Below are positions 41,444 to 50,257 of a DNA stretch of 64,000 nt, one piece after another. Source of the DNA: a virus; the IMG/VR virus record IMGVR_UViG_3300046665_000548, positions 434,001 through 498,000 of that record; one strand, written 5' to 3'. The translations under genes and the position numbers were made by a program. Each line of letters opens with the position of its first letter. The stretch's first letter is position 1. Below the pieces are notes generated by a model. That model did not search any database and was not told the origin of the DNA. It was given only the letters and a program-made list of their open reading frames with translations.

Positions 41444-43672
41444 TTAGAGGTATTTATTCGGCTCTAGTAACTGACCGTCGAACACTGTTTGGAAGGTGAT
41501 ATCGGAGCTATCGAACGACGTAATCGTACCATCGAAGGCCGTTTGCTTGACGATCAGATTGACTGTCGCGACGTAGCGGTCGAATGTAAACACGTGTCCA
41601 TCGTTCATTAGCTCGTCATCATGGACCCGCAGCGTCTCAAGAAGATTGGCTCCTTGTCCGGGTTGCAAGTGGGCAATTACGATGGAAGGAACATATCCCA
41701 AGACGCTGGATGGCACATTGCGAACCTGCTCTGCGCGCATCCACAATGGAAGACCTTCCGGCCCGGATGGTCCCAAAGTCGTAGTCTCCAGAAGATTGAC
41801 TGCTGGAAACTGAATATCCTTCGCAAGGTCTTTACGGATGTTTTCAAGGCTGATCGGATAGATGTACTCAATCGACTTCGACTGCGGATAGACGACCTTT
41901 TCTTCTATTGGAGCATTGTTCGTTCGGCTGAAACCACCTGAACCGGTATTAGGATCGTACACGTCTCGATATAGGACCTCATATGCTACGGCCCCGGTTT
42001 GATCACGAACAACCGCAATTTTATGATCTCCCAAAATGAGATCGAGCGAGCCATGATAGTCCGGATTCATAAGATGTGGGCTACCATCACCGCTTGTTGC
42101 GGTCTGGAGGCTCACTCCGTTAGCATTCAACCCGCGCACCACGTATACTCGCGGCTCACGCACCATACCGAAGTTGGCATCGTCTGCTCTGAATAGCATA
42201 TTCGTGTTGATGAAATCTCGGTAGTTCCTAAGAAAGTTATATCGATTAACCACCATCAGTTTCAGACCGATGTCGTAGAACGTGCGAGATGTAATTCTAG
42301 ATTTTAGAGTCAAAGAAAATGTTCTATCTACGAATGTCGGACCAGATTCGGCTCTGACCGTAAAGCTATACTTGCTGTCATAAGTGACAAAGCCGTTGAT
42401 CCCGCGAATTTCGCCAGTGCTTTGCACTATAATCAAACCGGGCGGCAAGCCGCGTGAGCTTGGGGCCATAGAATAGGTTATGACTGCATTATCTTCGCCG
42501 CCAATGATCTGTGCTTCGATCTTCAAGAAGCACGGCTCGGCCGAGTAAATCGTACCTAGATCGGTTTGAGTGATCCAATTGATCTTAGGGGTGGCTTCGA
42601 GTTTACTCGCAAGTTCATACAGTACCTCGATCATAAACGTGAAGACCGTCGTGTTGTCGTTGGTCTTCAATTGAAAGAAATACTGCCCGGCAGGGATCGA
42701 TGGATCGATCATGCCTTCGATCTGATAGCCGTTCAGCTTGAGACCTGTCGGCATACCGCCAAAATATTCACCGATGTCGGGGAGACCCGTAACCTTCTTG
42801 ACGAAAAGCGTCGGATGATCTCCGTCAGGATCGATAACGTCGAGTGTATACGCGAAGCTCTGACCACGCTTCAATCGTGCAAGGCGACGATATTGAATTG
42901 TTGTGTCGGGTAGAGTTTGAAGTGCCGGTAGTGAGCGCGATTCATACGTCGTCGGATAGTCCACACCAGTTACCGCAATACTAAATGTGCGGTCACGCGA
43001 CCGAAGACCGTTGGATGCACGTACAGTGAATCCATAGGTAGTAAGCTCGGGAGGATTCACATTGCCGACCGTGCCCACGATTTCACCGGTCTCTGGAGCG
43101 ATACCAAGTCCAGGCGGCAATGCCCCATTCAATATAGTGTAGGTCAGACGATTAGTCGTATATACCTCAATTACGGAAATAGCCGGAAGAGGATCAAATA
43201 GAATCGATCCCGATCCCTTCGTAAATGAAATCGCGTCTCCGTTCACGACTACACTATTGACATACGTTACTACATTCGTAGGCATAGTAATGAACGCCGT
43301 TCCTGCCGGAACAATCGTCGTTAGTACATCAACCGCGTCTAGAAAATAGGATGCCTGCTCGCCTTCTTGAGACGTTAAAAGAAGAGAGGATGGAGTTTGC
43401 CAATGAGGAACGAAACCTTCATGGGAAATATTGTTGAAGGACGTGAACTCCCGAATTGAGTTACTGGCCGATCCAACGATAAAGACGCGAAGATTAGAAT
43501 TGCCCGTGATAGGAGCGAGGGTAGAAGCGACCACGCCTCGAACGGGCAGTTCGCTATCCACTTGTTGCGTCAGCAAACCGATTGGATCGTTTCCAGACAG
43601 AGAAACCAGAAGGTACGCTGCGGATTCCGTCTCTAAATTGTCATACGTGTTAGTAGCGGAACCTACCGGCAT
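41444..43672 (-). CDS. Tail structural protein with Ig-like (He_PIG) domains (742 aa)
   Basis: Contains two putative cadherin/He_PIG-type Ig domains: 'YTILNGALPPGLGIAPETGE' with 'TYGFTVRASNGLRSRDRTFS' (about 180-240), and 'ITYSMAPSSRGLPPGLIIVQ' with 'YSFTVRAESGPTFVDRTFS' (about 395-460). The N-terminal 180 residues are beta-rich. Function is probably adhesion or baseplate/fibre connection. AGGAG before the ATG; late box at 43698-43705. Last of three adjacent structural genes. Confidence 0.75.
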   Translation of the reverse strand: MPVGSATNTYDNLETESAAYLLVSLSGNDPIGLLTQQVDSELPVRGVVASTLAPITGNSNLRVFIVGSASNSIREFTSFNNISHEGFVPHWQTPSSLLLTSQEGEQASYFLDAVDVLTTIVPAGTAFITMPTNVVTYVNSVVVNGDAISFTKGSGSILFDPLPAISVIEVYTTNRLTYTILNGALPPGLGIAPETGEIVGTVGNVNPPELTTYGFTVRASNGLRSRDRTFSIAVTGVDYPTTYESRSLPALQTLPDTTIQYRRLARLKRGQSFAYTLDVIDPDGDHPTLFVKKVTGLPDIGEYFGGMPTGLKLNGYQIEGMIDPSIPAGQYFFQLKTNDNTTVFTFMIEVLYELASKLEATPKINWITQTDLGTIYSAEPCFLKIEAQIIGGEDNAVITYSMAPSSRGLPPGLIIVQSTGEIRGINGFVTYDSKYSFTVRAESGPTFVDRTFSLTLKSRITSRTFYDIGLKLMVVNRYNFLRNYRDFINTNMLFRADDANFGMVREPRVYVVRGLNANGVSLQTATSGDGSPHLMNPDYHGSLDLILGDHKIAVVRDQTGAVAYEVLYRDVYDPNTGSGGFSRTNNAPIEEKVVYPQSKSIEYIYPISLENIRKDLAKDIQFPAVNLLETTTLGPSGPEGLPLWMRAEQVRNVPSSVLGYVPSIVIAHLQPGQGANLLETLRVHDDELMNDGHVFTFDRYVATVNLIVKQTAFDGTITSFDSSDITFQTVFDGQLLEPNKYL

Positions 43673-45806: not shown

Positions 45807-46379
45807 ATGCTTGATATCGAAAAACTAGAAGACTCCCCGCATCTTCTCGATCTGCTGGTTCAGATGGAAGACGTGCTCGACTCCATGGACGTGTACGTTT
45901 TTAAGAACTGGATCGATGGAGAGATTGTTGAAGGGCCGAAGGTTCGACGCTATTGGCTCGACATGACCCTCAAATATCCTTACGACAAGATGCCCGATCC
46001 GCGTGCAGGTCTTCGTCTGCTCAAGCACGGCGTGCGAGTTGATTTTAGCAAAGCCCACGAAGACGACAGCGGAGACGCAAAACCCGTCGAGGGCGAAGGC
46101 GAGAAGGACAGCATGGTCTGGCTCGTTCACGTTTCAATTCCTCGTCGTCTGATTGTTGAAATCAATGCTGGTCAGCTTGACTTCTATGATGATGAAATCG
46201 ACAGCGAGGACGTTGAGGACGCACAGGACTCCGGCGTAACCGACGAGACCGGATATACGGCTCCCGAAGAAGGTGGCCTGCCTCCTCCTGGTGGACCCGA
46301 AATGGCCCCACCAGCGCCGGGAGGTCCAGGTGGCCCCCCACCGGCACAACCGCCAATGGGAGGACCGCCGCGTGGCTAA
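45807..46379 (+). CDS. Late protein with Pro/Gly-rich tail (190 aa)
   Basis: N-terminal 130 residues form an alpha/beta domain ('LLDLLVQMEDVLDSMDVYVF', 'MTLKYPYDKMPDPRAGLRLL'). The last 50 residues are Pro/Gly/Ala-rich. I recall related proteins in T4-like cyanophages, next to the following gene; not verified. Behind a late box and terminator, so a virion or assembly role is likely. Confidence 0.6.
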   Translation: MLDIEKLEDSPHLLDLLVQMEDVLDSMDVYVFKNWIDGEIVEGPKVRRYWLDMTLKYPYDKMPDPRAGLRLLKHGVRVDFSKAHEDDSGDAKPVEGEGEKDSMVWLVHVSIPRRLIVEINAGQLDFYDDEIDSEDVEDAQDSGVTDETGYTAPEEGGLPPPGGPEMAPPAPGGPGGPPPAQPPMGGPPRG

Positions 46380-47088
46380 TCTATTTGAAGGAATGCGCCA
46401 GGGCGATCTGGAGGACATGCTCCTCCCGCTCATTTCTGTGGATGAATACGAAAGCAAAATCGATAAGAGTGCGGTCGTGATCGGTTTTTACGTTGGCGAC
46501 CAAGATGCGGCAGAAGATTTGAACAGGTTTATCCAACGGTCTCCCGTTGAAATCCTCGACACTGAAATCTCGCCCGCGCCAGATCAACAGGGATACTATA
46601 TGGTATTCGTTGAATTGTTGAACAATGACAAACTGGCGGGGAATATCGAAGACCTATTGAAGGAGATTCAGCCTCTCAGTCAGGTCGATAATTGGCAGAT
46701 GCATATTCGCGGGGAGCCCGATCTTGTTCCTTTCTCTGACAAAGCGATCTCTAAGCATGTATTGCCGCCATCCGAAGAAAAAGTTGAGGAAAGCATTCTT
46801 GCATTCTTGACCAAGAGCGTTCTTCGTGATGCACATGTAGACAATAATCAAGTGGTCCTGGAGGGTGATTCGGGTCGGTTTGAGCTTAGCTATGTTGGGC
46901 TTGGACCTTATCAGGAGACGATGTGCGAACACGGCCTAGAAGAAGCCGCTGTTGGATTGAGTCTGCAAGACGCTGCTCGCAGTTCTAAAATCCAGACAAT
47001 GCTTGGCGAAGGTTGGTCTGTATCTCGGGTTGGTGATTGCGATGTCTTGCATCGCCTTGACACTGATATGGTCTTAATTCTATCATAA
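46372..47088 (+). CDS. Conserved T4-like late protein (238 aa, GTG start)
   Basis: Starts VANLFEGMRQGDLEDMLLPL at 46372 with GGGAGG upstream, overlapping the previous gene by 8 nt. 'ISVDEYESKID', 'AEDLNRFIQRSPVEILDTEI' and 'YYMVFVELLNNDKLAGNIED' are a pattern I recognise from T4-like cyanophages. Function not known; position in a late cluster points to a structural or morphogenetic role. Confidence 0.65.
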   Translation: MANLFEGMRQGDLEDMLLPLISVDEYESKIDKSAVVIGFYVGDQDAAEDLNRFIQRSPVEILDTEISPAPDQQGYYMVFVELLNNDKLAGNIEDLLKEIQPLSQVDNWQMHIRGEPDLVPFSDKAISKHVLPPSEEKVEESILAFLTKSVLRDAHVDNNQVVLEGDSGRFELSYVGLGPYQETMCEHGLEEAAVGLSLQDAARSSKIQTMLGEGWSVSRVGDCDVLHRLDTDMVLILS

Positions 47089-47140: not shown

Positions 47141-47506
47141 ATGTTGGAATCGGGCGTACTCGATTACCCAGTCACGTGGCGACACATGAAGTCAGGGTTC
47201 CTTCTAATGGGAAAGCCAAAGGGCTTTTTTCCAGATATCACCGATCTTGTCCAAAGGGGCGTTGAGCCACCGATCTCCGACGAAGAGAAAATGTTCAACG
47301 TTGTGATTTTTCCAGAACCAAATTTGATTTCCGAACTGCGTGAATGGTTGTCAGAAAATACAGACATGCAGGTCGGAATGTTCGCCCGATTTTCATGGGT
47401 CACACAGAAATATCGTATCGACCGAGAGTATCAAGGTGTACGTTTTGTGTTCGAAGATATGAACGTCGCGGTTCTTTTTAAGCTGTTTTGGGCACAAGGT
47501 TCTTAA
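47141..47506 (+). CDS. 'FKL'-motif paralogue (121 aa)
   Basis: Ends 'GVRFVFEDMNVAVLFKLFWAQGS', one of the best copies. The N-terminal half has 'YPVTWRHMKSGFLLMGKPKG' and a helix 'ISELREWLSENTDMQ'. Inserted between late genes. Function unknown. Confidence 0.6.
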   Translation: MLESGVLDYPVTWRHMKSGFLLMGKPKGFFPDITDLVQRGVEPPISDEEKMFNVVIFPEPNLISELREWLSENTDMQVGMFARFSWVTQKYRIDREYQGVRFVFEDMNVAVLFKLFWAQGS

Positions 47507-47560
47507 TGCCTGGGTTTTGCTAAATACCTGCAAGTAGAGCAGAAAAGAGTAAAACCCCCA

Positions 47561-47812
47561 GTGTTTGAAAGTATCATTCAGAAATTGTTAGAAGCCATGC
47601 TTGCGGGTGGACCGCAGGCGTTTGTTGCTATTCTGGCTCTTATTGTTGCTCTCCTTCTATTGGAGAGGCGTCGTCTCGTTGCCGACATCCAGAAGAAAGA
47701 TGACAAGATCGAAAAGATCATTGATGACTATTACAAGGGCAACCTAAGTCTGTCTGAAGCGCTGACCCATCTGAAGCTAGTTCTGTACGAAATCAAAGGC
47801 AGAATCCAGTAA
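47561..47812 (+). CDS. Small membrane protein with coiled coil (83 aa, GTG start)
   Basis: Residues about 18-37 ('PQAFVAILALIVALLLLERR') form one membrane segment; the rest is a charged helix. Preceded by a late-type box (47519-47526). Could be a holin-like or spanin-associated protein, or a partner of the PAS protein that follows; sequence does not decide. Confidence 0.55.
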   Translation: MFESIIQKLLEAMLAGGPQAFVAILALIVALLLLERRRLVADIQKKDDKIEKIIDDYYKGNLSLSEALTHLKLVLYEIKGRIQ

Positions 47813-47834
47813 TCGGCGTACGAGGATGTGGTCC

Positions 47835-48677
47835 ATGTTTTTCAAAACAAAAAAGAGACAGAAGGAAGCTCTGACAGCCGCGAAGATGGCAGAGAGCCAA
47901 CTCACTTTGATCCAGGCCGCAACCGATACTGCGGAAGCCGCACGAGATGTCGCGGCTTCGCTAAAATCAAAAATCGATGATGCGTTTACGCAGCTAGAAA
48001 ACACCGCGCGCATTATTAACGATGCTCTTTTTCTTTGTAGCGAGGATGGGAGCATTGTTACGAGCAATACGGCGGCGACCGCCATGTTTGGATACGACGC
48101 TCAAAACGTTCTTGAAGTATTTGACATGGCTGGCGCACCGCTCCCTGATGCGGCAACTCTTTGGGATCATATTCAACACACCTCGTCCTGGATGCCATCT
48201 TCAAGAAGACCTCTTCGATGCAAAAGGGATAATGATCTTATTTGGGTCGAACCGAAAATGTCTCGCCTTGTGTGGTCTGACGGTTCCAAAAGCATCCTCG
48301 TCTTAATCCGAAGCATTGACAGCCTCGTAAAGATTCAAAAATCCGCTCAAGAGGCGCGCAAGCGATATCGCGCTCTAATGGACAAGTCGGTAGATGGAAT
48401 ATTGGTCATTCAGCACGATTTGATCATTGCCGCAAATCCCGCCGCTCGTAAAATTTTCGGTTATGAAATTCAGGAACTCCTCGGTCAGCCGATAAGTTTT
48501 CTGTTTCATGAAAGCGATCACGATTTGATCATCGAACACGAGGTTGTCCACACTATCGTAAAGGGTGTGCATGATGACAATACAACCGTGGATTTACTTT
48601 TCACGGCGGTGCCCATTGAGTGGCACGATGAACCTGCCAAATTAGTGACGGTTCGCGACACCTTCACTCCGAAATAA
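47835..48677 (+). CDS. Twin PAS-domain protein (about 280 aa)
   Basis: Residues about 10-60 are a coiled coil. Two PAS domains follow: 'INDALFLCSEDGSIVTSNTA' with 'AATAMFGYDAQNVLEVF' (about 60-95), and 'SVDGILVIQHDLIIAANPAA' with 'ARKIFGYEIQELLGQPISFLF' style residues (about 180-225). PAS domains sense ligands, redox or light and mediate dimerisation. No kinase or cyclase domain follows, so output would be by protein contact. ATG 47835 has GAGG 10 nt upstream; ATG 47826 is an alternative. Sits in a late cluster after a membrane protein. Confidence 0.75.
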   Translation: MFFKTKKRQKEALTAAKMAESQLTLIQAATDTAEAARDVAASLKSKIDDAFTQLENTARIINDALFLCSEDGSIVTSNTAATAMFGYDAQNVLEVFDMAGAPLPDAATLWDHIQHTSSWMPSSRRPLRCKRDNDLIWVEPKMSRLVWSDGSKSILVLIRSIDSLVKIQKSAQEARKRYRALMDKSVDGILVIQHDLIIAANPAARKIFGYEIQELLGQPISFLFHESDHDLIIEHEVVHTIVKGVHDDNTTVDLLFTAVPIEWHDEPAKLVTVRDTFTPK

Positions 48678-48724: not shown

Positions 48725-49858
48725 ATGCAATTGATTCATATCCCAGAGTTGGTACATCTGCGCAATACCTTCCAGAAGTCGGGCTTCGATATCCGACTGG
48801 TTGGTGGTTGTGTGCGCGATATGCTGATGGACATTCAGCCCAAGGATATTGATCTGTGCACGGATGCCTCGCCTGACGAGCAGATCGCTCTGTATAAGGC
48901 TGCCGGTGTTCGGTTTGCTGAGACCGGTCTCCAGCATGGCACGATCACTGCAATCCTGCCGGAGGGCGTCTACGAGATCACGTCCCTGCGTACCGAGACG
49001 GAGCACGATGGCCGCCACGCGACCGTCAACTATACCCGTGACTGGAACGAGGACCTGGGCCGTCGCGATCTGACCATCAACGCGATGGCTATGACCTTCG
49101 AGGGGCAACTGCTGGACCCGTTCGGCGGGCAAGAGGATTTGAAGGCCCGTAGGCTGCGTTTCGTCAATGATCCGGATCAACGTATGCAGGAAGATTACCT
49201 GCGTATTCTGCGCTGGCTGCGGTTTCAGGGTCGAATTGCCCCCGGTCAGCAACTGGACCAGGATACCTGCGCCGCCGCAATGCGCAATGCCAAGGGTCTG
49301 GAGCGTATCTCGCGTGAGCGTGTCTGGTCCGAGGTCTCCCGGATGCTGTCCACGGACGGCGGTCCGGAGATGCTGGATGCTATGTGGAATTTGGGTCTGG
49401 CCGATCCATGCGGTCTGCCACGCGGGTATAGCGCCGAGGTTCGGCGCGTGCATCAGTATACGCGCGATCCCGTTGCACTGATGGCTACCTTCATCGGTGA
49501 TTCGGAAACGATGGCCGCGCTGGCTCGCGCGTGGAAGTGGAGCACCGATGAATCGAAGCTGGCGCAGTTTCTGACCAAGAATCGTTTCCGCAAGGACTTG
49601 GACTTCAAGCGGATGGTCGCGCTGAACGGCGTCACCAAGGATGCGATTTTTGCCCTGTCTATCCTGGAGGATCGCAGGGTGGAGGGTGAGGCCGTGATGG
49701 GCTGGGACGTACCCGTGTTCCCGGTGACCGGCAACGATCTGATCGCGGCTGGCATTCAGCAGGGTAAACAGATTGGTGAGACCAAGACTCGTCTGATGAA
49801 CCTGTGGGCCGATTCGGAGTTCAATATGTCCAAGGACGACCTGATGGGGGCAATCTAA
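48725..49858 (+). CDS. cca: CCA tRNA nucleotidyltransferase
   Basis: Adds or repairs the 3' CCA of tRNAs. 377 residues. Class II features: '[12 protein letters not shown]' (24-35, G-G-x-V-R-D), the metal-binding D-x-D in '[11 protein letters not shown]', 'HGTITA', '[11 protein letters not shown]' (about 113-123) and '[14 protein letters not shown]'. Helical C-terminal body present, so length is near normal (bacterial enzymes about 390-420). The ATG lies 6 nt after the -10 box and has no ribosome site: leaderless. Works with tyrS, S21 and RNA ligase as a translation-support set. Confidence 0.93.
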
Positions 49859-49860
49859 CC

Positions 49861-50028
49861 ATGATGCGTTTCCTGCGACGCTTGCAGCGCTATTTCAAGA
49901 AGGAAGATCGTTCGTCTATAGCGTACATGACGCCAATCGTTGGCGTCATGCTCGTTATCAACGGCCGAAGCATCACCCCAGCAGCGACCAGATATGAACG
50001 AACCATTTCTCATCGAATTGGAACGTGA
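49861..50028 (+). CDS. Possible small membrane peptide (55 aa)
   Basis: ATG 49861, two bases after the cca stop. Basic N-terminus (MMRFLRRLQRYFKKEDRSS) and a short hydrophobic stretch (IAYMTPIVGVMLVI). The DNA for that stretch is an inverted repeat (10-bp arms, 49927-49949), so the reading frame may be incidental. It overlaps the next gene by 35 nt. Confidence 0.35.
   Translation: MMRFLRRLQRYFKKEDRSSIAYMTPIVGVMLVINGRSITPAATRYERTISHRIGT
49927..49949 (+). repeat. Perfect inverted repeat, 10-bp arms, 3-nt loop
   Basis: ATGACGCCAA / TTGGCGTCAT around TCG. Could fold into a tight hairpin in mRNA; no T-tract follows. Confidence 0.5.
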
Positions 50029-50257
50029 TCCGTCTCTCTATGGGGAGATTAACGCGCAATTTCGAATATTCGAAATGCGTTGGGTCGAGGTCACTCGTAT
50101 AAAAATGATGGAGGAATGGTGCGCCTCCATGTTTGGTGTCGATCCACGCATGGAGAACGATAAGCTTCCCATCGAGCGCTGGAGTAGAATGGGACCACGC
50201 TGGTATTTTAGGGACGAGACCGACGCCCTTGTCTTCAAAATGATGTGGACGACTTAA
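49994..50257 (+). CDS. 'FKL'-motif paralogue (87 aa)
   Basis: Starts MNEPFLIELERDPSLYGEIN; ends 'GPRWYFRDETDALVFKMMWTT', matching the family core closely. 'MEEWCASMFGVDPRMEND' in the middle. Its end overlaps the convergent minus gene at 50235. Function unknown. Confidence 0.6.
   Translation: MNEPFLIELERDPSLYGEINAQFRIFEMRWVEVTRIKMMEEWCASMFGVDPRMENDKLPIERWSRMGPRWYFRDETDALVFKMMWTT

Follow-up and report, generated by a model that had tools for sequence, protein, structure and literature searches.

Among 50,697 phage records, one family of small transmembrane (TM) proteins is represented in Sinorhizobium phage Phosso and Agrobacterium phage Atu_ph07 and in no others, and in both phages the TM gene is followed by an overlapping gene whose product is composed of PAS domains (Phosso XYS97610/XYS97609; Atu_ph07 gp048/gp049). 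The motif ATAAATA lies upstream of the Phosso pair and TAAATA upstream of the Atu_ph07 pair. Phosso XYS97609 is annotated as a "PAS domain S-box protein" and has three PAS domains; Atu_ph07 gp049 is a 536-residue multi-PAS protein named "multi-sensor signal transduction histidine". Tandem PAS domains are otherwise familiar from the oxygen sensors FixL and DosP, which carry their own histidine kinase or EAL output together with a haem-ligating histidine in helix F-alpha. A phage-encoded PAS receptor is also described in vibriophage VP882, where VqmA lets host-cell information control phage behaviour, although that phage is temperate and VqmA is a transcription factor that binds DNA and has no TM partner (PMC8284805). 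A literature search on PAS domains in jumbo phages gave no relevant hits.

The window described here is a 64,000-nucleotide stretch corresponding to positions 434,001–498,000 of a 607,744-base virus record, and it contains the same gene pair in the same order. The two open reading frames reported in the initial annotation are both present, the first encoding an 83-residue TM protein (47561–47812, rightwards) and the second a tandem-PAS protein of 283 residues (47826–48677, rightwards). The TM protein is 57% identical to that of Phosso but only 33% identical to that of Atu_ph07, and the PAS protein shares only about 23% identity with its Phosso counterpart and has fewer PAS domains than gp049. 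The genomic locations also differ, with the Atu_ph07 pair at another site and the Phosso pair situated between opposite-strand genes, towards primase/helicase.

Upstream of the pair are two rightwards-transcribed virion structural genes, a 121Q gp62-like gene (45807–46379; phrog_12928 match) preceded by ATAAATA at about 45776, and a gp63-like gene (46390–47088; phrog_13138 match) whose product matches gp63 of Escherichia phage 121Q and one Phosso protein. Judging from these two matches, the phage is a relative of the Rak2/121Q/Atu_ph07 jumbo phages. Between the gp63-like gene and the TM gene is a rightwards-transcribed 121-residue reading frame with no assigned function (47141–47506), a member of a syntenic family (c3, in 9 loci) that often occupies this position in relatives. 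Its C-terminal end resembles those of the 49940–50257 product and of a leftwards-transcribed gene elsewhere in the same virus record, outside the window (L005:507–827), and these small proteins of about 105–121 residues perhaps form one paralogous family. Directly downstream of the pair (48725–49858) is a gene for a tRNA nucleotidyltransferase of the CCA-adding type (phrog_2244, E=1.4e-60), and a homologous gene is downstream of the pair in the relative L011 as well. Other genes in the vicinity include a leftwards-transcribed gene (41444–43672) whose 742-residue product contains three Ig-like He_PIG repeats and matches a virion structural entry (phrog_13911), and, beside the pair in a related phage (L008:7220–8953, leftwards), a 577-residue reading frame that by eye resembles an acetolactate synthase-type thiamine-diphosphate enzyme.

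The TM protein has a single hydrophobic stretch (residues 16–34) followed by RRR, and its predicted structure is entirely helical (residues 2–15 and 18–82), giving a short N-terminal helix, one TM helix (about 16–34) and a long basic tail. The single-TM partner noted initially is thus borne out by both composition and model. The tail is likely cytoplasmic, as positively charged residues follow the TM helix (positive-inside rule), and it carries the conserved motif KKDxKIxKIIDDYYKGNLxLxEALxxLKxVLxEIKxK. The family has no Pfam match and no convincing PHROG match, and the window phage's genome contains one copy of the TM gene, beside the PAS-only gene.

The 47826–48677 product matches Pfam PAS_9 (E=6.5e-19) in two stretches and well above the gathering cut-off. 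An AlphaFold2 model built with 13 homologues (mean pLDDT 83.0) consists of a long helix (residues 3–65), PAS1 (67–163), a linker helix (165–187) and PAS2 (191–278). Foldseek places it closest in the PDB to FixL (tandem PAS; E=2.6e-12) and DosP, the same two proteins that are recovered by a sequence-based PDB profile search. The two PAS domains initially proposed here, a proposal to which a structure prediction lacking the PAS fold would have been fatal, therefore have the expected fold. Combining Pfam with the model, PAS1 can be assigned to residues 66–164 (48021–48317, also found in the profile search) and PAS2 to residues 188–279 (48387–48662). Translation probably begins at the ATG at 47835 (280 residues) rather than at 47826, because a GAGG sequence abuts the first ATG but precedes the second by 9 nt, and because MFFKTKKR fits the N terminus of the family. 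The N-terminal segment (47826–47879; MWSMFFKTKKR) is rich in aromatic and basic residues, with at least two W/F in residues 1–8 and at least three K/R in residues 4–16. This composition is found in 20 of 22 PAS homologues and in one of 150 neighbouring reading frames, and it resembles that of an in-plane membrane anchor, a role we regard as putative. It is followed by the long helix proper (residues 19–65; 47880–48020), the best conserved part of the protein and a candidate docking or signalling helix, in which S24, A31, A32, T35, A39 and T60 are invariant.

A scan of 13 PAS-only family members, in which only PAS-type families recur, revealed neither a kinase, cyclase or phosphodiesterase domain nor one that binds DNA, in agreement with the original description of two PAS domains without an output domain. 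Membership of the sensor histidine kinases was rejected as HisKA/HWE and HATPase domains are absent from these 13 proteins, and the name given to the Atu_ph07 homologue is misleading for the same reason. A different gene of the window phage (record 200,578–202,074; L005:1324–2820) codes for a 498-residue protein that likewise has two PAS domains but differs in having an HWE kinase domain (E=2.7e-28) and no accompanying TM gene of the pair's family; by its domain content this is a phage-borne sensor kinase. Elsewhere in the record, a 133-residue open frame on the minus strand contains a receiver-domain match (569,882–570,190, in L050; PF00072, E=8e-9) and is possibly a stand-alone response regulator.

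The TM gene is preceded at a distance of 34 nt by CTAAATAC (47520–47527, rightwards; TAAATA at 47521–47526), a T4-type late promoter core. The related jumbo phage CBB has ATAAATA before structural genes, likened by its authors to the T4 late promoter TATAAATA (PMC5259590), and one Atu_ph07 gene product resembles a late sigma factor (PMC6102473). With a TATAAATA-like core near its start, the TM gene has the hallmark of late genes in Rak2/T4-type phages. TAAATA ends 8–48 nt upstream of the TM gene in all 23 homologous loci. For 15 of these loci the joint chance, calculated from local hexamer frequencies, is ~1e-26 when the phages, which are in fact related, are treated as independent; even so, the degree of conservation is striking. 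Within the window, 14 of the 16 TAAATA sites are 10–59 nt before the start of a reading frame; sites include 14702, 26742, 45777 and, on the minus strand, 43703 and 41456, and these T4-type cores offer a means of mapping the phage's late transcription units. In the window no second TAAATA separates the TM gene from the PAS gene, so the two are likely co-transcribed. The motif at 47520 and the ATAAATA that precedes the virion gene starting at 45807 support late expression of the pair and agree with its earlier placement in a late cluster.

In a search of viral contigs, 23 distinct genomes or contigs of large phages, the window among them, proved to carry the TM gene, and a gene for a PAS-only protein is downstream in all 22 loci in which the contig continues. 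The two genes overlap or are no more than 29 nt apart in 19 of these 22. The exceptions are L034, which has an opposite-strand reading frame between them, and two loci with longer gaps (335 nt in L011, 123 nt in L031). The PAS-only proteins contain two to four PAS domains each, and in nine of ten relatives scanned the PAS-only gene accounts for all PAS_9 matches. The pair occurs in at least three genomic contexts: at the gp63-like virion gene in 15 genomes, where that gene is the upstream neighbour (15/23), at a Phosso/Atu_ph07-type site in six (Phosso, Atu_ph07 and L042–L045), and elsewhere in L021 and L034. It is therefore the pair and not its genomic place that is conserved, and the TM and PAS genes constitute a conserved unit. 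The TM protein was the productive probe, as a single-sequence PAS query of the viral contigs returned no relatives because the PAS sequence is too divergent. With tblastn the tail alone gave matches and the full-length window TM protein gave none, probably as a consequence of low-complexity masking. TM relatives were absent from 84,980 species genomes (in pattern-limited scans) and from 72,556 plasmids, and neither a cellular origin nor the existence of prophage copies is supported by these searches.

The proximity to virion structural genes, together with the late promoter, would suit a role in which one or both proteins are packaged in or attached to the particle, functioning during entry or as minor components of its structure. 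Atu_ph07 gp048 and gp049 moreover fall within CDS 31–76, the source of 29 of the 131 virion-associated proteins identified by mass spectrometry (PMC6102473). We nonetheless consider a virion location very unlikely, as a TM anchor is unusual for a structural protein of a tailed phage, and in both Atu_ph07 and Phosso the cluster around the pair is encoded on the other strand, as if the pair had been inserted there. The "virion structural protein" labels in the RefSeq record of Atu_ph07 were rejected as virion evidence; the same genes are each a "hypothetical protein" in the submitters' GenBank record, and the labels are thus later additions.

Conservation is unevenly distributed along the two proteins. 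Mean pairwise identities among 22 genomes are 60% for the TM tail and 33% for the TM anchor, and 46%, 32% and 30% for the N-terminal helix, PAS1 and PAS2 of the PAS protein, respectively. The TM protein as a whole is better conserved than the adjoining gp63-like virion protein (54% versus 40% in the same 11 genomes). Distances between tails correlate with those between PAS-protein helices (r=0.78; partial correlations of 0.61 given PAS2 and 0.44 given PAS1), whereas the tail-to-PAS2 correlation given the helix is -0.02; these values fit a contact between tail and helix, as a weak signal drawn from related phages.

This pattern also bears on the earlier suggestion that the pair might time lysis by redox or energy state. 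In such a timer the TM protein would be holin-like or antiholin-like and gated by the PAS protein. A late promoter and a small single-TM protein with a basic, putatively cytoplasmic tail would be compatible with such a timer, the lysis mechanism of Atu_ph07 is unknown (PMC6102473), and in another phage the PAS protein VqmA of VP882 does control the lysis-lysogeny decision (PMC8284805). However, a TM segment less conserved than the tail is the opposite of what would be expected of a pore, and no endolysin or spanin is recognised beside the pair in the loci examined. A weak match to the Pfam BhlA holin family (PF10960) is seen in one of 14 TM members (E=0.089), but the consensus of the family matches no holin at E≤10 and membership of the BhlA-type holins was rejected. 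With no lysis gene linked to the pair, lysis timing is a conjecture that we regard as decidedly improbable.

The initial annotation further named haem and flavin as ligands worth testing. At the level of the family, sensing through either is not supported, since neither an F-alpha histidine nor a LOV cysteine is conserved. Haem-binding PAS domains are characterised by an invariant haem-ligating histidine in helix F-alpha (PMC10468136). In PAS1 the position of the FixL haem histidine aligns to a residue other than histidine and, as read by eye, to a position that is acidic in the profile of the family; each histidine of the window protein is kept in at most nine of the 22 homologues. The proteins thus do not qualify as a family of FixL/DosP-type haem sensors; single members may possibly have a haem site. 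Nor do they belong with the LOV flavin photosensors, since the adduct cysteine (GRNCRFLQ-like) is not conserved; the equivalent stretch of PAS2 is GQPISFLF, and the only partly conserved cysteine, C71 (13/22), is in the first strand of PAS1, away from the adduct site. PAS domains of the FAD type (NifL/Aer) have FAD-binding Trp, His and Asn residues (PMC10468136); W266, which may or may not be equivalent to the Trp of that type, is invariant in the 22 homologues.

No cofactor residue was found to be conserved, and the PAS modules may therefore act as scaffolds and not as sensors. The repeats would then be oligomerisation modules that organise a platform at the membrane late in infection, serving assembly or takeover of the host, consistent with a PAS copy number varying from two to four, with the lack of a conserved haem or LOV ligand, and with a position beside head genes in 15 genomes. 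Set against this, the PAS core residues N81, F88, N204, G212 and W266 are kept in 22/22 homologues, such that the domains are maintained as folded modules, although ligand binding is not thereby proven. We view a purely scaffolding role as unlikely, if still plausible.

The reading we favour, with a little more confidence than doubt, is that the pair forms a late inner-membrane PAS sensor or adaptor complex that acts by protein contact. The two genes would constitute a late operon producing this complex in the infected cell. The small protein would span the membrane once and offer its conserved helical tail to the cytoplasm, while the PAS protein would rest on the membrane through its aromatic/basic N terminus and pair with the tail through its conserved N-terminal helix. 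The two to four variable PAS modules would respond to a cue in the cytoplasm or else engage a partner protein. Because no enzyme or DNA-binding domain is present, output would be by protein contact, either through a change of conformation relayed to the TM tail or through late recruitment of a host or phage partner. We infer the physical complex, its topology, its membrane binding, sensing and action by contact from the sequences. The infected-cell sensor first suggested for this locus is well supported as an architecture, in the conserved pair, late promoter, putative anchor and PAS modules, and the sensing itself is conjectural. A more specific version, which is possible but unlikely, is a two-protein membrane sensor dedicated to lytic megaphages in which the PAS modules would read the state of the infected cell and the conserved TM tail would itself be the output. 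Lysis, assembly or another late step would then be adjusted with no kinase, cyclase or DNA-binding domain involved.

The pair would represent PAS signalling in a form that is unusual in being output-less and membrane-paired. The analysis corrects the "histidine kinase" annotation of the Atu_ph07 homologue, and the pair is compact and present in two isolates with cultivable hosts (Phosso and Atu_ph07), such that it is open to experiment. Obligately lytic phages are usually pictured with a fixed late programme. A conserved, late, membrane-linked PAS module in phages with genomes of up to about 600 kb suggests that these phages may monitor the cell late in infection.
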